A stretch of 64,000 nucleotides of DNA, from assembly GCF_036785885.1 (NCBI RefSeq), contig NC_092312.1, positions 16,200,001 through 16,264,000 of the forward strand, read 5' to 3'. Made by a program: the position numbers and the translations under genes. Below, piece after piece: positions 1,976 through 59,050 of the stretch (within the stretch, counting starts at the first letter, position 1; each line of letters starts with the position of its first letter). The notes beneath the pieces were generated by a model that made no database searches, had not been told where the DNA came from, and worked only from the letters and a program-made list of their open reading frames with translations. Origin of the DNA: Coffea arabica. Its lineage: Eukaryota; Streptophyta; Magnoliopsida; Gentianales; Rubiaceae.

Positions 1976-2461
1976 TCAGTAGTGGAGCATGTTTGCTGAG
2001 GGCATAAGAGGCTGCTGCTGGTTCAGATAGAGATGATTCCAAGAATTGTTCAAGAATCCATCCGCAGTTTCACCAAACCCATAAGAACCCTCGGCAGCCA
2101 AACCACCAGTACAGACATTCAAGAATTCGATGATCTCGTTGAGGGACTGCAATCTGTGGCTGAGCTCAGCCACCTGAGCCCTGAGGACAGAATTTTCAGC
2201 CTCAACATTCAGATACTGCTGGGTGGTAACGTTCATGCTCGTGATGATTTGGTTATTTTCCTTTCTGAGCTGAGCAACTTGGGCCATCAGGTCGTCTAAA
2301 TGCTTCTGTTTCCTCATTCGCGACCGCCTTGCGGATTCGCGATTCGAGATCATTCTCTTTCTTTTTCTCTGATCCATCAAGTGCTGAAGATCTTCCTCAG
2401 AGCCTGAGTTCTGAAACCCAGATGACCCTGAAGATGTCCCACTGCCACTAGAGGAAGCCAT
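1976..2461 (-). CDS. bZIP transcription factor, group S1 (bZIP11/ATB2-like)
   Basis: Intronless 161-residue protein. It has a Ser/Gly-rich N-terminus (1-20), a basic region at about 31-50 with the plant bZIP signature N40-x7-R48 (NRESARRSR), and then a leucine zipper with heptad-spaced hydrophobics (about 55-115) containing QYLNVEAENSVLRAQVAEL. Small size, lack of introns and the conserved zipper place it in group S1, whose members act in the nucleus, usually as heterodimers with group C bZIPs, and reprogram amino-acid and sugar metabolism under low energy. The ATG at 2461 (MASSSGSG) is chosen because the frame extends upstream only through a non-ATG codon and family members begin MASSS or similar. 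The ~630-nt leader carries three uORFs, including the sucrose-control peptide, so translation is probably repressed by sucrose. bZIP2, 11, 44 and 53 types cannot be separated with confidence. Confidence 0.93.
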   Translation of the reverse strand: MASSSGSGTSSGSSGFQNSGSEEDLQHLMDQRKRKRMISNRESARRSRMRKQKHLDDLMAQVAQLRKENNQIITSMNVTTQQYLNVEAENSVLRAQVAELSHRLQSLNEIIEFLNVCTGGLAAEGSYGFGETADGFLNNSWNHLYLNQQQPLMPSANMLHY

Positions 2462-2669: not shown

Positions 2670-2696
2670 CTATTGGGAAAAGAAGTCAAAAATCAT
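2670..2696 (-). CDS. Short uORF overlapping the stop of the sucrose-control uORF
   Basis: Eight codons plus stop (MIFDFFSQ). Its ATG overlaps the TGA of the sucrose-control uORF in the arrangement TCATGA, one frame away. A ribosome finishing the long uORF could in principle re-initiate here. Arabidopsis bZIP11 also has several small uORFs overlapping the conserved one. The peptide itself is probably unimportant. Confidence 0.5.
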   Translation of the reverse strand: MIFDFFSQ

Positions 2697-2818
2697 GAAA
2701 TGTAGTAGAACCAGTAGAGGAAGACAACTGAGAAGGATTGAACTAAATGGGTCCTGCGCCTGTATGTGGAATTTATCATACACCCGGAAAGGAAGAGTTC
2801 ACTGAGAATTGCAGACAT
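2693..2818 (-). CDS. Sucrose-control peptide uORF (SC-uORF) of the bZIP leader
   Basis: A 41-codon uORF, 231 nt upstream of the bZIP start. Its C-terminal half contains MINST, then RRRTHLVQSFSVVFLYWFY, the hallmark of the sucrose-control peptide that is conserved across plant S1 bZIP leaders. In the known system the nascent peptide stalls the ribosome when sucrose is high and blocks translation of the main ORF. In Arabidopsis-type peptides the last residues are usually YVFS; here they are YYIS, a small change next to the stall point. The peptide acts in cis inside the ribosome tunnel and is not expected to have a free function. Confidence 0.93.
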   Translation of the reverse strand: MSAILSELFLSGCMINSTYRRRTHLVQSFSVVFLYWFYYIS

Positions 2819-2852
2819 GAATTTCAAAGATCAAGAACAAAAGATTGAGCAT
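2799..2852 (-). CDS. First uORF of the bZIP leader, overlapping the SC-uORF
   Basis: A 17-codon uORF starting MLNLLFLIFE, out of frame with the SC-uORF and overlapping its start by 20 nt. Ribosomes that use this first ATG would run past the SC-uORF start, so the pair could tune how often the regulatory peptide is made. An upstream overlapping uORF is also described in Arabidopsis bZIP11. I scanned the minus strand from about 3090 to 2462 and found only three out-of-frame uORF starts. Confidence 0.6.
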   Translation of the reverse strand: MLNLLFLIFEIHVCNSQ

Positions 2853-3120
2853 TAAGCTTGTTTTGAAGAAAAAACAGGGGGATGATGCTAGAGAACAACG
2901 GTGAAGCTGGCCGCCGCAGCTGGCAAGTGGCAACTCAAGAAAGAAACCCACTACCCGGATGGACAAAATCTTGAAATGGGTGTCGGACTTATTGACCCAG
3001 AAATTAACCTATACGTTGAAACTAATGGGCAGAGAGAAGTGACGCTAGCTAAAGGGTGTTAAGCCAAGGCAAAGAGGAAAGGGAGGAGAAAGGGGAGGTT
3101 ACAATGCGCTTGTTAAGGGG

Positions 3121-3128
3121 ATTATATA
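3121..3128 (-). promoter_or_regulatory. TATA box of the bZIP gene
   Basis: On the minus strand the sequence reads TCTATATAATCC. With a start 25-35 nt downstream, transcription would begin near 3090-3100, giving a leader of about 630 nt. That fits the long uORF-bearing leaders known for this family. A (GA)10 run at 3199-3218 lies just upstream. Confidence 0.55.
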
Positions 3129-3218: not shown

Positions 3219-3560
3219 AGTGGAATAAAAAAGAAGTTTGGAATCTTACCTGTGAGAAGGAAGTGGGCGCTGGGAGAGGATGATGGGACATGTGGGGCGG
3301 GGGAGCAGAGACCTCCACATCCAGCTGGCGAGCAATATCTGACAAGGTTAAAAAGTTAAAATCATCACCCAGAAACCGATTTTTTTTTAATAATGGGCAG
3401 GTAGAAACTGAAATCAATTGGAAACCGTTAAAGGAGAAAAACTTGGACAAATTTTGAGGCCGTGACGATGATGTTGATTTGTATGGTGGGCTGGTGCGCA
3501 CAGTTTCCTTTTCAAGCTAGCCAAGATCATCCTTGAGTTTTCCACGCTTATACCCACTAG

Positions 3561-3735
3561 TAGAGGTGGCAAATCAATCCACTTAACTAGATTTACCCAT
3601 ATCCGTCCATGAATAGATGGGTATGGGTATCTTAAATTTTTGTATATGGATATAAATGGGTTACCCAATAATACCCATTTAATAAATGGGTATTATTGGG
3701 TAACCCATCAAATCCAATTAACCCATTTAAAATTC
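3561..3735. repeat. TAGAGGTGGCAA repeat with a 53-bp perfect palindrome
   Basis: The stretch starts TAGAGGTGGCAAATCAATCC, an end typical of abundant plant hAT-like non-autonomous repeats whose interior is rich in 'atgggta' words. Inside, 3656-3708 forms a palindrome with two perfect 26-bp arms around one base (outer words ATGGGTTACCCAATAA and its inverse). A related, more decayed copy begins near 16803. The right end and target duplication were not found. Confidence 0.45.
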
Positions 3736-3810
3736 TCTTCCCCCCAAGTCTCTTCTTTTCCCCTACCTTTTTTTTTTCAAATTTTTCATTTTGTCATGAT
3801 GTTAACATTT

Positions 3811-3978
3811 AGTGTGTTTGGACAGCCAATTATTTGGCCAAATATATTTGCTGACATCACCATTACAATTTCCAATACACCTTTTTATCTTCCCAATTAC
3901 CTTTTTATCTCACATACATCACATCACAAAAAGTGCTACAGTAAAAATATTTCAAATAACTTACAATCCAAACACACT
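3811..3978. mobile_element. MITE of the GTGTTTGGA / gctacagta family, best copy
   Basis: The ends are perfect 12-bp inverted repeats (AGTGTGTTTGGA … TCCAAACACACT). The interior contains the words CATACATCACATCAC and GTGCTACAGTAAAA, which recur in the copy at 49081-49223 and, more decayed, near 10920-11060 and 18190-18300. It is 168 bp long with no coding potential. No target duplication is obvious, so the superfamily is left open. Confidence 0.65.
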
Positions 3979-5118
3979 TATTATTATTAGTATTATTATT
4001 ATTATTTGTTGGTTTTATCTTATTATTTTATTTTTTTCTTAGTTTGTTAACTTGCTCATTTTTTAGCATTACCAATTTATGATAAATTTTAGCCTATTTT
4101 CTTATCTTTATAAAATGAAATTTTAAATTTATATATGAAAAAATGTTAGGGGTTCAAAATTTTTGAATTAAGTTTTATATTAATTTTTATAGTACTTAAT
4201 TCACAATTATGTTAGGGCCACTAGAGACATCTCTTTTTTTTTTTAATAGTAATTAAAAATTTGAGTTGGTTCGGCTTTTATCACAATTATGAATCAGGAG
4301 GTATGCTCTCGGAATTATAATTGATCGAATATACAGCCTCTCACAAAATTCGAATATATGACCTTTGATAAAAAATTACCCCGTTCTTATCGAGTCAACT
4401 TGTATCATTATGTCAGTAGCAAAGCGTGTAGGAAGTGAGTTGTATCATTATTGTCATTAGTAATACGTTTAGGAGACGAAGAATTCTAATTTTAACTCAT
4501 TGGTTGACATACCTTTCTTTTGGAAAGAGGCAAATATAATAACTCACTCACTCAGTCTTTAATCCTGTCTTTAAATGGAGGAAAACATATCAGATATCCT
4601 TGGATCCACCCAACGTGAATCTGATTCCTTATTTTTTAACCATAGAGCTCAACATTGGTTAGTTTTTAACTTTTGAAAGCCTATGAGTACATAATTTTGT
4701 GCTTTATTAATGATTCCTTTAGCACTAAATCATCCGACGTGTAATACCTATTGCCTTATTACATAAGACTGGACAGTATGCTACTGTGATCCAAAAGCAC
4801 GATAATTTTCCTAATCATATTATTATCTGCTCTTACTTTTACATACCATTTAAGTCCTATGCTTTCAACTCTGCACTACTCTTTAGCCAAAAAAAATTAA
4901 AAAAAAAAAATACACTCTGCACTACTCCACTTCTGTGTTCCAGAGGGAGGGGCCTGGGACTTCTGCAATAACTTGTGCCAATTATATATATTGTACAATG
5001 CAAATAGTACTACAATAAAATATGGACTTTAAGATAGCAAATATGTGGCATTAACAAAGTAACGTATAAAATCACAACAAATTTTATCCTACAATCACAT
5101 TTGTGGTCAATTTTTAAT
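3979..5118. other. Intergenic, no gene recognised
   Basis: AT-rich sequence with short unrelated frames only. I see no domain, RNA gene or clear transposon end. Confidence 0.45.
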
Positions 5119-25535: not shown

Positions 25536-28500
25536 TTAGAAACCGAAAAACTTCTTCTTCTTCTTCTTCTTCTCAATGTAGGCTAGGAGTTCTTGCTGTT
25601 GGAGAAGAGCCTCATCAAGTGCCTGCAAATGGAAGAGAAATACATGCGGTGGTTAGGAGACGTTTATCACAGCTTATTTATTTTGGCTTTGTTACCAACC
25701 ACTGACACCACCCGACCATTCCATTCCTATATGGTAGGGCTGGCCAACAGCTAACGAGCAGTACCTTTTTGGCTGATGCAAGCTCTTGCTCCAAGGCGTC
25801 AACTCGACTCAAGGCATTGTTGAGCTCTTCCTCTTTCTCAGGTGGCATGGTCTGGGATTTATTCCCGAGGACGGACATCTTGTCCTCCAGCTCAGCCATG
25901 CGCTTCATCATGGTGAAGTAATCAGCGCTGGAGATGGCCGGCGCCGGGAGTTCATAAGCGTGGCCTTTAACCATAGCCTCAACACCGTACATGGAGCCAT
26001 TAGAGTAGAAGGTTGCATCTGTCATCTTCCTTGGCATGTTGCGCGTCATGCGCACCATGGTGACGATGCCCATGACGAAGGTCATTACCCCGGTGAAAAC
26101 CTGGTTGCTGAATCCATCATTGCCCTTGCAAGCATCATGATGATGCACTGGGTAATAATCCGCGGCTTTTACATGCATAAAAACACAGATTATTCAGATC
26201 CGGATCAAACAATCTACATTTACGCGTGCGAGAAAGATAAAAGAGCAAAGCATCAGTCGGTGATCGAGCGAGCACCTTTTGAAAGGGCAAAGTCGTCGAT
26301 TTTCGATATTTTATGCCAAGTCGTATCAACAGTTTTCTCCATTACTGGAATGCATCTTTCGGGCTCGGTGACGGGGCGGCACTTGCTTGCAACCTCCAAA
26401 AAAAAAAAAAAAAAGAAAGAAAAATTATCCCTAGCAGTCATGGTGAAAGTTCCAACTCGTTTGGACGCAGTCAATTTAATTACACCAGGATGGATGGGGC
26501 TTGCATTGCATGGTTAGTTTCAAGTTCTGACCATCAAATCAAACGAAACTACGCAAGGCAAATGTACCTCCTCCTGAACGGCGGAGAGTTGCGAGCGTGT
26601 CCTTTGGACCCTGGGAGATTCTAGTTTGAAGGAATGGTTCTTCTTCGCGTTCACGACATAATAAGAGGACAGAACAAATACATTCAGCATTATTGCATTC
26701 AAAGGAATGAAATAGTTCTCAGCCTCAAAGCAATGACTCACAACTCAAAACCCGATGAGGCAAATTTTACCCAAAAAGAAAATGTAGGGTGTATGAAAGA
26801 ACCAAGGCCATCAATGATCAAACCAGATTAAATGGAATGGTAGGCGTTGTTGTGTACCTTGGAGTTGGCATTCTCGTCCTCTGAAATTGTTTTCTCGTCA
26901 ACATTTGGGATGATGATTTTGTTTGAGCATTTGTGCTCACCATTGCGAACCATCTGGTCAATTTTGTATATCATAAGCCTTCAGTGTTCTCGTTGATAAA
27001 TCAATGTTCAGATGTAAATTCAGAAAGCTTTCAACTCATGAACCAACCTTCATAACATCTGCGTCGTTCCATGGGCCTTTGTCAGAAAGCATGCATCCAC
27101 CCTTATCAGCACAGGTGCATGTACCACCCAAGAATTCAGGTAGCTCGCTGATGCAAGATTTAGGAAGATAAAAAAGTAGTGTCAAGTAAAGTTGTGTAGA
27201 ATTGATGCCAGCCCAGTGAGAATTGAAAAGCTGAGAGCTAGGCTTCACATCTATTAACTAAAGCTTACCTGGCATCAATTACTTCAAGGAGTTTGCTCTG
27301 GAATTTGTTGCCTAGAACCTGGAGATGGTGAAAATTATGTTTCGTTTTCAGTAGGTGAGAATAAATAGTAATGCTTTGAGGTAGCTGATGGTATGTATGA
27401 GCTTACATGGATCTTTGCGGTGGTCTTGGGGTCAAGGAATGATTTGACAGTGTTCCACAAAAGCCTAAATCCGGAGCCAGCATTGACGATGTACATGCGA
27501 CACAACGTCTGTATTGAACAAAGAACATTTTAGAAGAGCAAAACAAACTTCAGAGCTATCCCTAGTAGAAAAACAGGACCAAAAACAATTGACTGTGACT
27601 GGAGCAAAACAGACGGGAGTTAGTACCTCTGGGTAGTTGTCACCATCAATCTTCTGGAGACGTTGAATAAGCTCCCTTGCAGACTTGTTGAAGTTTTTCA
27701 GTCCCTGAGCCAGTCATAGTTGTCATTAGCTCTATACCAGCTCCATTTATTGTCCTTGTCTAAGCGAAATTCTTGACAGCAAGAATCATTTTTTGGGTAC
27801 ATAAATCCAGAAGAACTCGACTTACCACTCCTTGCACATCCAGAATGGTAGTGCTCTGGTCAATGTGCTTCTTGGCTGCAATAGAGCAGGCTGGGAACTT
27901 ATCAGCAAAGGTCCTTTCAAACTCCTGGACATGATACTTAACATAGCGGTCCATGGTCGTGACTTGCATGAGCTTGACAGCATCAACCTGTCCAAGTCTT
28001 TCAATATAAACAGGTCTCCCATCCTTGTCAACCCCATGATGCCCGTGTGGATAGTACTTGAGCACCTCACTCTTTTCCTTGAACTCAAAGTCCTAAACAA
28101 AGGGTTGTCCGTTATGTACTTAGATATGCTCACTCAGTTAATCCTAAACATAAGATGTTGCACTCGGGAATGACAAATACCTCCATGATTGTGTCTGCAC
28201 CGAAGTCCTTCCTCCACTGGATCATATCAGCCCACATTTGCTTTGTTTTCTCAATGTCAAATTTCCTGGCCCTCAAAAATCTGGATATAACAGTGGAACC
28301 TATTAGGCCTATGGTTTTCATTTTTGCCCAAATTATAGGTATAATCTAATTTTTTTTATGTCTATATTTATCAACTGTACTATTTCTTCAACTTGGAATA
28401 AATAGTTGGATTAGACATCCAATCCATCTTGAAACCAGCTACACTTTTGCCTACTTTAACAACAAGAAATGGTACAAACATTATTCTGAGAATAGGATAA

Positions 28501-33582: not shown

Positions 33583-38753
<5,171 letters not shown>

Positions 38754-41069: not shown

Positions 41070-44000
41070 ATGGCATCGAAATCATTTAAGGCAAGCAGAT
41101 CAAATCTATCAACGGTATCCGATATGTCAGAGTCACAGAATGGCAAGCCCCCACTGCCCCCGCATATGAGATATGGGCAGAGGAATACCTCTGGGAAGTA
41201 CGTCAACCTTTCCAAGGATGATCTTGACAGTGAACTTGGAAGTGGTGACTATATGCGCTACATTGTGCAGATTACGAATACGTCTGACCACCAACCCATG
41301 GATTCCATCTCTCAAAAGGTTGAAGAGCAATATGTCTCAAATTCACTCTTTACAGGTGGGTTTAACTCGACTGCACGAGCTCATCTTTTGGATAAGGTGA
41401 TCGAATCTGAAGCAAAGCATCCACAAATGGCCGGTGCAAAAGGTTCCCCGTGTTCGATTCCTGGCTGTGATGCAAACGTGATGAATGATGAGAGAGGAAA
41501 TGACATCGTCCCATGTGATTGTGGATTCAAGGTATGTAGGGAATGTTACATTGATGCGGTTAGAACAGGAGATGGGATTTGCCCTGGGTGTAAGGAGGAA
41601 TATAAAGATGCTGAGTCGGATGAACTGCCAGAAAATGAGCAGACACTTTCACTTCCTGTGCCTCGTGCGATGTCAAGGCTGGCGAGGAGGCTGACATTGA
41701 TGAAGTCAACAAAATCAATTCTCAAGAGAAGCCAGACTCGAGACTTCGATCAAAACCGATGGCTTTTTGAAACTAAGGGAACCTACGGTTGCGGCAATGC
41801 CATTTGGCCAGAGGATGGAGGATTTGTACATGGAAAGGATGATGAAGTCGTAGACCCTACTGACTTGAGGATGAACAAACAATGGAGGCCTCTAACCCGC
41901 AAACTTAAAATTCCATCTGCCATTTTGAGCCCATATAGGTACAATTTGTACTTTTTGGCATTTTGCCTTGGAGCACTAAAGCAGTACTCTTTTTATGGCC
42001 AGCATGTTTACATGTGTACAAAATGTGCTTGTAATTCAGTCTTTTTTTTTTTTTTCTGTTCCATGTGTTATAGGCTTTTGGCTCTTATTCGGATGGTGGT
42101 TCTTGCATTGTTTTTGGCGTGGAGAATAAATCATCCCAACAAGGACGCAATCTGGTTATGGGCCATGTCTGTGGTTTGTGAAATATGGTTTGCATTTTCT
42201 TGGATTCTTGACCAACTTCCAAAACTCTGCCCAGTAAATCGTGCTACGGATCTTAATGTCCTAAAAGAGAAGTTTGAAACACCTACTCAAATTAATCCTA
42301 CAGGGAAATCTGACCTTCCTGGAATCGATGTTTTTGTCTCTACAGCAGATCCAGAAAAAGAGCCTCCTCTAGTCACTGCAAACACTATATTGTCCATCCT
42401 AGCAGCTGATTATCCAGTTGAAAAATTAGCTTGCTATGTCTCCGATGATGGAGGGGCTCTTTTGACCTTCGAGGCTATGGCAGAAGCAGCAAGTTTTGCT
42501 AATATTTGGGTCCCATTTTGTCGCAAGCATGACATTCAACCAAGGAACCCAGAATCTTACTTCACTATGAAGAAAGATTCTTACAAAAAGAAAGTTCGTC
42601 CAGACTTTGTTAAAGATCGTAGACGTGTCAAGCGTGAGTATGATGAGTTTAAGGTTCGAATCAATGGCCTTCCAAACTCTATCCGTCGTAGGTCTGATGC
42701 CTGTCATGCCAGGGAGGAAATTAAGGCACAACAGCAACAGAGACAAAATAATGATGATGAACTTGTGGAGAATGTCAAGATCCTGAAAGGTACATGGATG
42801 GCAGATGAATCACATTGGCCTGGGACTTGGATAAATCCAGCACCTGAGCACTCCAGGGGTGATCATGCCGGAATAATTCAGGTATGCTCTTCGTGGTATA
42901 TGAACTTTGATTTTGCTAACCAAAACCAAGAAAGTGAATGCAAAGTCACATATCAATGCAAATTTTTTTTTTTTTTTTTTTTTTTGTGTGCAGGTAATGC
43001 TTAAACCTCCAAGTGATGAACCCCTGCAAGGAAATGCTGATGATGGGATAATTGACTTGACTGATGTCGATATCCGTCTTCCCATGCTTGTCTACATTTC
43101 TCGGGAGAAGCGTTCTGGCTATGATCACAACAAGAAAGCAGGGGCTATGAATGCCTTGGTGCGAGCTTCTGCAATCATGTCTAATGGTGCCTTCATTCTC
43201 AACCTTGACTGCGATCATTACGTATACAACTCCGAGGCATTGAGAGAAGGAATGTGTTTTATGATGGACAGAGGCGGCGATAGAATTTGCTTTGTTCAAT
43301 TCCCGCAGAGGTTTGAAGGTATTGACCCTTCTGATCGCTATGCGAATCATAATACCGTTTTCTTTGATGGCAACATGAGAGCCCTTGATGGGCTTCAGGG
43401 TCCTGTTTATGTGGGAACTGGATGCCTCTTTAGGCGCATTGCTCTTTATGGCTTTGACCCCCCGCGCTACAAAGAAGATCGCTCTGGTAGCTGCTTTGGT
43501 AGGCAGAAAAGACATTCTAAATTTGCCAATTCCTTGGAAGAAAACCAAGCCTTGAGGATAGGTGATTCTGATAGTGAAGAAATGAACCTCTCACTAGATC
43601 CCAACAAGTTTGGAAATTCAGTTTTTCTTCTTGATTCAATTCCCGTGGCAGAGTTTCAAGGACGTCCTCTTGGTGACCATCCAGCTGTAAAGAATGGACG
43701 ATCACCTGGTGCCCTTACCATTCCTCGAGAACTTCTTGATGCATCAACTGTTGGAGAGGCAATAAGTGTTATCTCGTGCTCGTACGAGGAGAACACCGAA
43801 TGGGGATCACGGGTTGGGTGGATTTATGGCTCTGTCACAGAAGATGTTGTTACAGGGTACAGGATGCACAATAGGGGATGGAAATCAGTATATTGCGTGA
43901 CAAAAGTAGATGCCTTTCGTGGGACTGCCCCAATCAATCTTACTGATAGGCTTCACCAGGTTCTTCGCTGGGCTACCGGTTCAGTTGAGATATTCTTCTC

Positions 44001-44739
44001 ACGGAACAATGCCATTCTGGCAAGCTCAAGAATGAAGTTTCTGCAGAGAATTGCTTATCTAAATGTTGGAATCTATCCTTTCACCTCCATCTTCTTGATC
44101 GTCTATTGCTTTCTTCCTGCTTTGTCTCTTTTCTCTGGTCATTTCATAGTTCAAACTCTCAATGTCACATTCCTCATCTACCTGCTTATAATTACTCTCA
44201 CACTCTCCATGCTAGCTATTTTAGAGATTAAATGGTCGGGCATTGAGTTACAGGACTGGTGGAGGAATGAACAATTTTGGTTGATTGGAGGGACTAGTGC
44301 CCACTTGGCTGCCGTGCTCCAGGGACTACTAAAAGTGATTGCCAGATTTGAAATTTCCTTCACTTTAACTTCAAAGTCAGCTGGTGATGACGAGGAGGAT
44401 GAGTTTGCAGATCTCTACATTGTTAAGTGGACGTCTCTCATGATTCCGCCGATAACGATTATGATGGTCAACTTCATTGCAATAGCAGTTGGAATTAGCC
44501 GGACAATATATAGTGTTATACCTCAATGGAGCCGCCTGTTAGGGGGAGTTTTCTTCAGTTTCTGGGTTCTAGCACATCTGTACCCTTTTGCCAAGGGGCT
44601 CATGGGCAGAAGAGGAAGGACGCCTACTATTGTTTTTGTTTGGTCAGGACTCGTAGCCATAATCATATCTCTTCTTTGGGTTTCAATTAATCCTCCAGAT
44701 GCCACCAACCAGATAGGAGGTTCATTTCAGTTCGCCTGA
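41070..44739 (+). CDS. Cellulose synthase-like protein D (CSLD2/3-type)
   Basis: Three exons (41070-41938, 42074-42881, 42994-44739) encode 1140 residues, the usual CSLD length. The ATG at 41070 ([15 protein letters not shown]) matches the family start; one at 41064 would add two residues. A RING-like zinc region has Cys 128, 133, 149, 151, 156, 159, 171 and 174. Two transmembrane helices (about 293-335) precede the cytosolic GT2 domain with D414-D415-G, D631-C-D633 (DCDHY), T841-E-D843 and Q881VLRW885, and six or so helices follow. All catalytic motifs are present. CSLDs make beta-1,4-glucan or mannan at the plasma membrane of tip-growing cells and cell plates. Ending SVSDMSES and LFTGGFNS-type segments favour the CSLD2/3 clade over CSLD5. 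One unusual residue is Ser822 in SCSYEE, where relatives I recall have Trp. Confidence 0.96.
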
Positions 44740-45135: not shown

Positions 45136-46950
45136 CTAAACATTTGGACCATCTATTTCTTGTTCGCCTTGTTCTTCTTGTAATCTTTTTGCCTTGATTT
45201 CATCATCTTCCCTCTTCTTCTCGAGGAGGAAGTGAATTAAATCTGCTAATGCCCCATCTGCGTCCTCGTTTCTCAATAACTGCTCCCCTACCTTAGCCGG
45301 AGACACCTCGACCTCCTCCAGCAGATTGTTGATTTCGTTGAAACGAGGGTGGGTTCTTAGCTTCAGATAATTCAAGGCAAGAGTCTTGAAGGCGCAGGGC
45401 GTGCAGTACGACATATGGATATGCATGTCCATCCGACCAGGCCGCAGCAGAGCAGGGTCCAAGTGCTCTTTATGATTGGTTGTAACCACTATTATCCGCT
45501 CATCTCCGCAACTTGACCACAGCCCGTCAATGAAATTAAGCAATCCTGACAATGTCACCTAAGAAATGTTCCAAAATGTAAGCAGGAAATGGTTCAAAAT
45601 TGATTTGGATAATCAAAATCTAAATTTTTGTGCTGCTTACAGGTAACGACAGCTTTCTTCTTGAGATGTACAAAGATTACGTACATTATATACCACATAG
45701 CACTGATCCTTAATCCTCATGGCTCTTAATACCATAACATCAATCTATCGGACAAAAGTCGGCCCTTAAGATGGTAGGGCACAATTTTTCATTTTTCTGG
45801 GAGAGGCAGCTAAGGCTCTTGTAAATGAATGCATTTCTCAAAAAGAAGAGAATCAGAGAGAGTTGATAGAGCTTACTTGGTTAGGTTTATTTTTTCGAAC
45901 GATGTTTACAGTCTGAGCTTGGCTGGCTTGATTTGAGCGAAGGATCTTCAAAGCTTGTTCTTCTGCCTTCCTGTCTTCCAGTTCAAGAGTGGAGTCTATG
46001 TCCTCAACAACAAGTATGGACCGATTTGCCGTGTTAATTAACAGCCTTCTAAGGTCAGAATTGGCGTGAATATCAGTTAGCTCCAGGTCATATATGTCAA
46101 AGTTAAGGTGGTTAGCCATGGCTGCGATCAAGCTTGATTTCCCTGTACCTGGAGGACCGTATAACAAGTACCCTCGTTTCCAAGCCTTGCCTACATCTCT
46201 ATAAAACTGCCTTCTTCTAACAAACCTGTCAAGATCGTCCATGATCATTTTCTTCAGTTCTGTGTCCATTGCCAACGTTTCAAACGTTGCAGGATGATCA
46301 AGCTTGATGGAGTGCCATGAATAATCTCCGGAGTATCTTCGCATGTGATCGCTACTCAGAGTATGAATCTTTATAGTTTTTTGCTCTTCTTTCACATTCT
46401 TAGATTCCTTGAGAATAAAAGGAAAGTACGATTCAAAGACCAATTTCTTGTGTTTCTTGTGGAAACATAGCTCAAGATAACGTATCTCTGCCTGCTGGCT
46501 TGAACCTTGACCGGAATACGAATACCTGACGCTGCTCTTCGATTCGAGCTGCCTTGTGACCTGCCTCCACTTGAATTGCACCCCCTTGAACTTGTCAATG
46601 ATTTCTTGATTTCTTGCCATTGATGTTGTTATCTTGCTCTCTTTCTCGGCCATGCTGACCATAAACCTTGCTGTGGAAGGGGAAATTTTGTCGCCTATGT
46701 AGATGTCAGCAGCCTTGTATATCTGATTCACTCCAAGGCCCGCGTATTCTTCAATGATCAAGACAATCTCAGGGGAAAATGATCTGAAGAACCTATGGAT
46801 ACTCGAGTAAACGTACGGTTGGAGTTCATATGGGATTAAGTCCCGGGCTATGGACCGGATCACCATAGCAGAAGCTGCCACAGACGCAGCAGCGGAGACG
46901 ATTGTCCCAGCAGAAGGCATGTTGTTGGCATCAGAAAAGATGGCGGGCAT
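45136..46950 (-). CDS. AAA-ATPase of the BCS1-like / ASD family
   Basis: Two exons (46950-45877 and 45558-45136) encode 498 residues. An Ala-rich hydrophobic N-terminal helix (about 14-32) acts as a membrane anchor. It is followed by the plant-specific AAA-associated domain (to about 200) and one AAA+ module: Walker A GPPGTGKS at 265-272, Walker B ILVVEDID at 312-319, and in exon 2 TTNHKEHLDPALLRPGRMD with sensor and arginine-finger residues. The charged C-terminal tail is rich in Glu and Lys. The family includes AtOM66 and stress- or salicylate-induced AAA-ATPases at mitochondrial or ER membranes. Substrate and exact location cannot be read from the sequence. Most relatives are intronless or have one intron, so two exons are normal. 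Confidence 0.93.
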
Positions 46951-47731
46951 CGTTGTCCTGCCGTCTGCGACTGGAATTTCAATAACGACTTTTACCGAAG
47001 CCTGAAACTACACAATATGAAGACAGAGGGAATTTCTTTCCACGCACAAAGATTAACTTCTTAATTTGTTCCCTAAATTCACATCAATACGATGATACCT
47101 TCACCTGCCCGCTCGGAAAATGGTGCCTAAGAAATGCCGCAAGGAAAAACTATTCATAACTGGATACTAATAAAATTAGTAGGATTAATGTATGGACGTC
47201 ATGTCATGGTGGGTCTTCGTAGCAATTTCACTCGTCTTTTCCTGCTTGGCTTTCTCAATAAATCCATCTAAACAACTACTAATGCTTTATCATCATTCGC
47301 TTTTAGCTATTGTCCTGTTAGGTGTGAAACATTCAACTACTGCAGCAGCGACTTCAATGGGTCGAATTTTCCAATTCTGTGCGCATATTTCCAACTGCCG
47401 TAGACTTGAGACAGCAGCGCCAGTACTTAGTGGAGGGTAATAGAACAAGTCTTGCCCTGAAGATTCTTGTTCTTTTTCTCTTCTAACCAAAGTCCAAAGA
47501 CCAAAACCAAGGAGCCATAGACGGCAGCCGTACAAGGCTTTCTAAAATCTCCTACAGTAATTGTTCTCAAATCTCTTTTAGTCTTTCTATTTTCTGTTTG
47601 GCGCATCGTCTTATGATTTTTTGGAAGGTGACTTTTTAAGTAAATTACCTTGGATAACTAACCAACTACTTCTTGTTTCCGTTTCTTGATCAATATTCAA
47701 TAGTCTTGTCTGGCAACCTTTGAACTCCAAA
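46951..47731. other. Intergenic, promoter side of the AAA-ATPase gene
   Basis: An 82-codon plus-strand frame at 47192-47440 begins with a hydrophobic segment (WWVFVAISLVFSCLAF) but continues into no family I recognise. It is probably chance. Confidence 0.4.

Positions 47732-57292: not shown

Positions 57293-59050
<1,758 letters not shown>

Follow-up and report, generated by a model that had tools for sequence, protein, structure and literature searches.

A canonical sucrose-control uORF in the leader of a Coffea arabica S1-type bZIP gene, surrounded by small overlapping uORFs that look mostly incidental

When several small reading frames overlap in the leader of a plant transcription factor gene, is the arrangement a device shaped by selection or a coincidence? 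The question is raised by a bZIP gene on the minus strand of the window, the stretch of 64,000 nucleotides of Coffea arabica DNA analysed here (assembly GCF_036785885.1, contig NC_092312.1, positions 16,200,001 to 16,264,000). An earlier note placed three uORFs in its leader at 2852-2799, 2818-2693, and 2696-2670 (all minus strand), read the middle one as the sucrose-control (SC) peptide, and proposed that the outer two form a nested control setting how many ribosomes make the stalling peptide and how many re-initiate. We confirmed all three sets of coordinates, the passage of the first uORF out of frame across the SC start, and the overlap of the third with the SC stop through a shared ATGA. 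The proposal of nested control fared less evenly: a canonical SC-uORF and weak AUGs are present, and the two outer uORFs were not supported as an evolved control, with start-crossing uORFs in three of five gene pairs and stop-crossing uORFs in four of five, both within chance. The evidence supports an S1-type bZIP gene with a canonical SC-uORF that has the four named residues and the fixed stop, and with weak AUGs that fit leaky scanning; the extra small frames around it look mostly incidental.

Reading frames, start contexts, and SC conservation across paralogs were all established in the present analysis. A single open frame lies 3′ of the leader, the main ORF (1976..2461, minus strand), and its small product is a 161-aa S1-type bZIP transcription factor with a Pfam bZIP_1 match (E 9.2e-11). 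The main ATG sits in the context TGC ATG G, with a pyrimidine (T) at −3 and G at +4. Reading toward it along the minus strand, the leader begins with uORF1 (2852-2799; 17 aa, MLNLLFLIFEIHVCNSQ), which has a weak start (TTA ATG C) and spans the SC start out of frame. The SC-uORF (2818-2693; 41 aa), the equivalent of AtbZIP11 uORF2, contains RRRTHLVQSFSVVFLYWFY, starts weakly (TTC ATG T), and holds the core codons for HLVQSFSVVFLYWFY at 2705..2749, where the degenerate SC codon pattern is found. Within it lies an internal in-frame start equivalent to the Arabidopsis “2b” start (2779-2693; 28 aa), which the earlier note did not include. The SC stop shares its ATGA with the start of uORF3 (2696-2670; 8 aa, MIFDFFSQ), and uORF3 is in the same frame as uORF1. 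Also absent from the earlier note is a fourth frame, uORF4 (2465-2448; 5 aa, MHGFL), whose ATG lies 4 nt 5′ of the main ATG (ATGCATGG) in a weak context of its own (TAC ATG C) and which runs out of frame to end at the 14th nucleotide of the main ORF. If transcription starts near a TATA-like sequence at 3128-3121, the leader contains five upstream ATGs (2852, 2818, 2779, 2696, and 2465), all five with T at −3 and none with G at +4. This candidate TATA box (TATATAAT, 3121..3128, minus strand) was recognized from sequence only and is kept in the homeolog; it would place a possible transcript start near 3095. A candidate leader intron of 100 nt is also visible at 3249-3150 (minus strand), running from CAG/GTAAG through a T-rich stretch to CTGCAG, and the homeolog keeps it. 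Use of this intron could mean a more upstream transcript start and two additional ATGs, at 3320 and 3291, of which the one at 3320 is missing in the homeolog. The extra upstream AUGs that such an intron would bring count as a point against the SC explanation.

A close known counterpart of this leader is that of AtbZIP11 (ATB2, At4g34590; conserved-peptide uORF homology group 1), described as 547 nt long with four uORFs of 18, 42, 5, and 18 aa (PMC2738917). The second of these is the SC-uORF, and its peptide is called required and sufficient; when its internal start was replaced by a stop codon, the reporter was active in high sucrose (PMC2738917). Five uAUGs are reported, uAUG1 and uAUG2a being weak, together with re-initiation given a spacer of at least 50 nt (PMC3020687). 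Sucrose-dependent stalling is described in PMC11120861, and stalling at the uORF2 stop codon has been attributed to Yamashita 2017. Across angiosperms, Ser29, Ser31, Leu35, and Tyr39 along with an invariable stop position are given as the conserved features of the SC peptide (PMC4960570). We compared the AtbZIP11 layout with the window through its published description rather than by nucleotide alignment. Both leaders have four uORFs with the SC-uORF second, five upstream AUGs, a 2b frame overlapped by the uORF or uORFs behind it, and weak AUGs at uORF1 and at the first SC start, and the sizes of uORF1 and the SC-uORF nearly coincide (18 and 42 aa in Arabidopsis, 17 and 41 aa in the window). 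The later uORFs are arranged differently. In the AtbZIP11 description, 2b is overlapped by two uORFs, uORF3 with 5 aa and uORF4 with 18 aa, whereas the window has one uORF over the SC stop and a fourth at the main ATG.

The reading of the middle frame as the SC peptide is borne out. By spacing (2, 4, 4), its S28, S30, L34, and Y38 match the four AtbZIP11 residues; its stop position is the angiosperm one; and 100 shuffles never produced the degenerate SC codon pattern, which the window contains once, so that the peptide is far beyond chance. A search with the SC peptide through the window's own genome (1.2 Gb; an assembly of 1.198 Gb in 131 contigs, with the window on contig C3) returned eight matches including the window, and all eight lie in bZIP leaders. 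Conservation was then judged among paralogs within this same genome, which contains at least 69 Pfam bZIP matches (150 of 191 candidates scored), many of them paired on contigs C3/C4, C13/C14, C19/C20, and so on. Twenty-one distinct bZIP genes were examined, namely the window gene and 20 others drawn from 16 stretches and 8 loci, 4 of which overlapped; the remaining Pfam bZIP matches were checked for the SC core through the SC peptide search alone. The genes fall into two groups, with 12 to 19 of the 19 SC core residues in 10 of 21 and 8 or fewer in the other 11. These 10 SC loci form five pairs: the window and its homeolog L009, L020/L021, L022/L023, L012/L013, and L016/L017, the last being more diverged and the one pair that the SC peptide search missed. 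The L012/L013 pair is unlike the other four in that both members lie on one contig (C2, at 55.17 Mb on the plus and 56.06 Mb on the minus strand), in opposite orientation, and its basic region reads NRLSAQRSR versus NRESARRSR in the other SC genes.

All 10 SC loci have two Ser, a Leu, and a Tyr at the AtbZIP11 spacing. Because we found these loci with the string SFSVVFLY, the search itself partly guarantees the two Ser and the Leu. It fixes neither the Tyr nor the stop, which falls exactly three codons past the key Tyr in all 10. The first SC AUG likewise follows one rule throughout: position −3 is a pyrimidine and position +4 is never G, a context that PMC3020687 classes as “weak.” Six of the 10 also carry an in-frame start at −87, counted from the SC stop. 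The last residues are more variable: the window and L009 end in YYIS, six of the 10 loci in YVFS, and the other two in YVIF. The final Ser is encoded by TCA in all eight Ser-ending loci (L020, L021, L022, L023, L012, L013, the window, and L009), including two that have a TAA stop, and the codons of the other two core Ser residues vary. This may reflect a preference for TCA where ribosomes would stall, although the sample is small. The YYIS ending counts against the SC explanation, and it is the observation behind a reading in which the SC-uORF is a relic that has lost its sucrose response, either through these altered last residues or through a transcript start downstream of it. We give that reading very little credence. 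The window gene retains each of the four key residues as well as the stop position, and between the window and L009 the SC-uORF has changed at 0 of 126 nt versus 10 of 486 nt for the main CDS. A sucrose response is also reported to persist for gymnosperm SC peptides with two of the four residues missing and another stop position (PMC4960570).

The homeolog further separates the frames around the SC-uORF from one another. A 240-nt block, which begins 234 nt before the end of the SC stop and runs 6 nt past it, is the same in the window and L009, and uORF1 within it is accordingly unchanged (0 of 54 nt); uORF3 differs at 2 of 27 nt. Set beside the changes in the main CDS, these counts indicate that the SC-uORF, and perhaps uORF1, has been held and that the body of uORF3 has not. 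One residue and the stop site of uORF3 differ between the homeologs, making it 8 aa in the window and 27 aa in L009, and we therefore rejected uORF3 as a coding peptide. We also rejected a conserved peptide in uORF1, since the four other pairs lack this ORF; the homeolog has an identical copy, but the whole surrounding block is equally unchanged. uORF4 occurs in both homeologs and is absent from the other eight SC loci.

How often would uORFs cross the SC start and stop by chance? For the window, we assumed a leader at 3095-2462 and ran 5000 simulations in which the SC peptide was kept, its codons were redrawn synonymously, and the flanks were shuffled. Of these runs, 34.9% produced a start-crossing uORF, 20.8% one that crossed the stop, and 6.6% both. 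When the flanks alone were shuffled, these figures were 36.6%, 99.9%, and 36.5%, the stop-crossing value being nearly complete because the stop-crossing ATG sits inside the SC codons. When the SC codons alone were redrawn, start-crossing uORFs remained in 86.7% of runs and stop-crossing uORFs in 11.3%. With both overlaps in 6.6% of fully randomized leaders, we rejected the overlap in the window as evidence of selection.

Extending the comparison to the five pairs led to the same rejection for the counts across pairs. A start-crossing, out-of-frame uORF is present in three of five (the window pair, L020/L021, and L012/L013), at positions and with peptides that differ from pair to pair, and is absent from L022/L023 and L016/L017. 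A stop-crossing uORF is found in four of five. Three pairs (the window pair, L012/L013, and L022/L023) have one that starts at −4 from the SC stop, through ATGA, and two (L020/L021 and, again, L022/L023) have one that starts at −14; in L016/L017, an ATG at −14 is followed immediately by a stop, and the SC stop is not crossed. In a second set of 3000 simulations, one locus per pair was used, the SC codons were redrawn synonymously with codon usage derived from the ten SC genes' own main ORFs, and the flanks were shuffled; stop frequencies (TAA 0.35, TAG 0.20, TGA 0.45) were a generic assumption. Three start-crossing pairs were reached in 637 of the 3000 runs, which is not beyond chance, four stop-crossing pairs in 704, which is within chance, and the −14 count in 1635. 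An ATG at −4 in three of five pairs was reached in 16 of 3000, a figure uncorrected for the four tests or for shared ancestry, and this ATG is the sole sign of selection among the four features tested. The earlier note had called for comparing the ATGs and overlaps among S1 bZIP leaders of related species. Carried out on five pairs from one genome, that comparison upholds the key Tyr and the stop position of the SC peptide (10 of 10 loci) and finds start-crossing uORFs, and likewise stop-crossing uORFs apart from the ATG at −4, no more often than chance allows. It suggests that selection has acted on the SC-uORF, and that the small uORFs overlapping it do not make up a conserved device.

These results bear directly on whether uORF1 and uORF3 were selected to apportion ribosomes between making the SC peptide and re-initiating, a reading that we consider unlikely. 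It can draw on the identical 240-nt block in which uORF1 lies, on the rarity of the −4 ATG in the simulations, and on AtbZIP11, where removal of uORF2b by mutation is reported to have reduced wild-type reporter output and the authors tentatively suggested that uORF2b softens the inhibitory effect of uORF3 and uORF4, which it overlaps. Against it are the chance-level counts of both kinds of crossing, the lack of any start-crossing counterpart of uORF1 in two of five pairs and the presence of a different ORF in two others, and the unlike uORF3 peptides and stops of the two homeologs. The −4 ATG is one feature of four, and L020/L021 also has TCA as its final Ser codon, with a TAA stop that leaves no ATG. 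In Arabidopsis, only uORF2 of the four is stated to be required for sucrose control (PMC5737654, citing Hummel 2009). A different second gate can be pictured in the uORF4 AUG together with the poor context of the main AUG, which would lower bZIP output as a last step, independently of sucrose, and without uORF1 or uORF3. We find this doubtful. The retention of uORF4 in both homeologs speaks for it, as does the standing of the window and L009 as the only SC pair of the five without a purine at −3 of the main AUG; but uORF4 is missing from the other eight SC loci, its own AUG context is weak, and the homeologs are so alike that the retention of a few bases is little evidence. An arrangement that joins parts of these readings is more improbable still: a two-step gate in which the SC-uORF senses sucrose, the lineage-specific AUG at 2465 and the poor main context cap output, and the ATGA is kept to decide the fate of ribosomes leaving the stall.

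We favor ordinary sucrose-induced repression of translation (SIRT) combined with leaky scanning over weak AUGs, to which we assign a probability of about 0.9, mostly by homology. The sucrose response, the stalling, and the re-initiation in this scheme are carried over from published work in Arabidopsis and tobacco. Scanning ribosomes would meet a series of weak AUGs, with part of them starting at uORF1, part at the SC-uORF (at 2818 or 2779), and part bypassing all of these. In high sucrose, ribosomes translating the SC-uORF would stall at its stop codon, block the leader, and cut bZIP output. In low sucrose, they would terminate, and some would re-initiate at the main ATG. The 231-nt spacer before it is longer than the 50 nt reported as needed for re-initiation in wild-type Arabidopsis with a simplified leader (PMC3020687). 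The parts given to uORF1, uORF3, and uORF4 are read from the layout, and uORF1 and uORF3 would be mostly passive. Ribosomes that translate uORF1 would skip the SC start and finish 19 nt before 2779, a gap that by the 50-nt figure is too short for them to re-initiate efficiently there, and SC translation would therefore be slightly reduced. A ribosome halted at the SC stop would sit over the uORF3 AUG, leaving it usable only by ribosomes that have leaked past; covered in this way, uORF3 could not count re-initiating ribosomes during the stall. uORF4 may lower bZIP output a little.

Other characterized leaders place this one in context. Tobacco tbz17 likewise has its SC-uORF second, among three uORFs, and sucrose repression was shown there with a reporter; in its 358-nt leader construct the uORFs occupy three frames, unlike in the window, where uORF1 and uORF3 share one (PMC3310857). 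The SC-uORF of strawberry FvebZIPs1.1 resembles that of the window in its two start codons and conserved Arg pair (PMC7470447). Overlapping uORFs are also described for AdoMetDC, whose tiny and small uORFs provide a precedent for what the earlier note proposed here, the first being described as limiting translation of the second (PMC7503886). The AdoMetDC pair, in contrast, overlaps by 1 nt, answers to a polyamine signal, and is described as highly conserved, and the overlaps in the window are not beyond chance. SC-type uORFs are reported in five of five Arabidopsis S1 genes and in only some of those elsewhere, such as 5 of 10 in poplar (PMC11120861). One supplementary SC-uORF alignment names Coffea canephora in its legend (PMC3310857), and our literature searches on coffee bZIP genes and uORFs and on Coffea arabica S1 bZIP genes returned no title describing the window gene. 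With the AtbZIP11 and tbz17 accounts, much the same layout has already been published and discussed for related genes.

Searches in other collections returned no relatives. The bZIP protein gave seven pattern stretches and no relative in viral_contigs and 0 matches to solved structures up to E 0.001, the SC codon pattern had 0 matches in viral_contigs and 0 in genome_contigs, and the SC peptide had 0 matches to solved structures up to E 10 and matched 0 Pfam families. Two features of the surrounding DNA came to light in the comparison with L009. About 657 bp upstream of the bZIP leader (3561-4217) are missing in L009 and have copies of CTAGTGG at their edges, likely a transposable-element insertion in the window copy. 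The stretch at 5163-5653 matches the homeologous L009 region in inverted orientation at ~69% identity, which suggests an imperfect palindromic element. Farther along the window, between 27763 and 58046, six of nine neighboring ORFs scanned have a Pfam match: CRAL_TRIO (27763-28092), Orn_Arg_deC_N (34203-34772), cellulose synthase (42904-44736), an AAA lid (45139-45558), AAA with AAA_assoc (45856-47007), and ribosomal S25 (57600-58046). Sec14-type, AAA, and S25 genes are, we presume, also found near Arabidopsis bZIP11 or bZIP2, and their sharing would support orthology.

The window shows how one S1 bZIP gene with an SC-uORF is laid out in a large plant genome, adds a comparison of five pairs, and opens no new question. 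Manipulation of the SC-uORF is reported to have raised sugar content in strawberry and tomato. The translation of S1 bZIP genes under sucrose control affects sugar content and growth.
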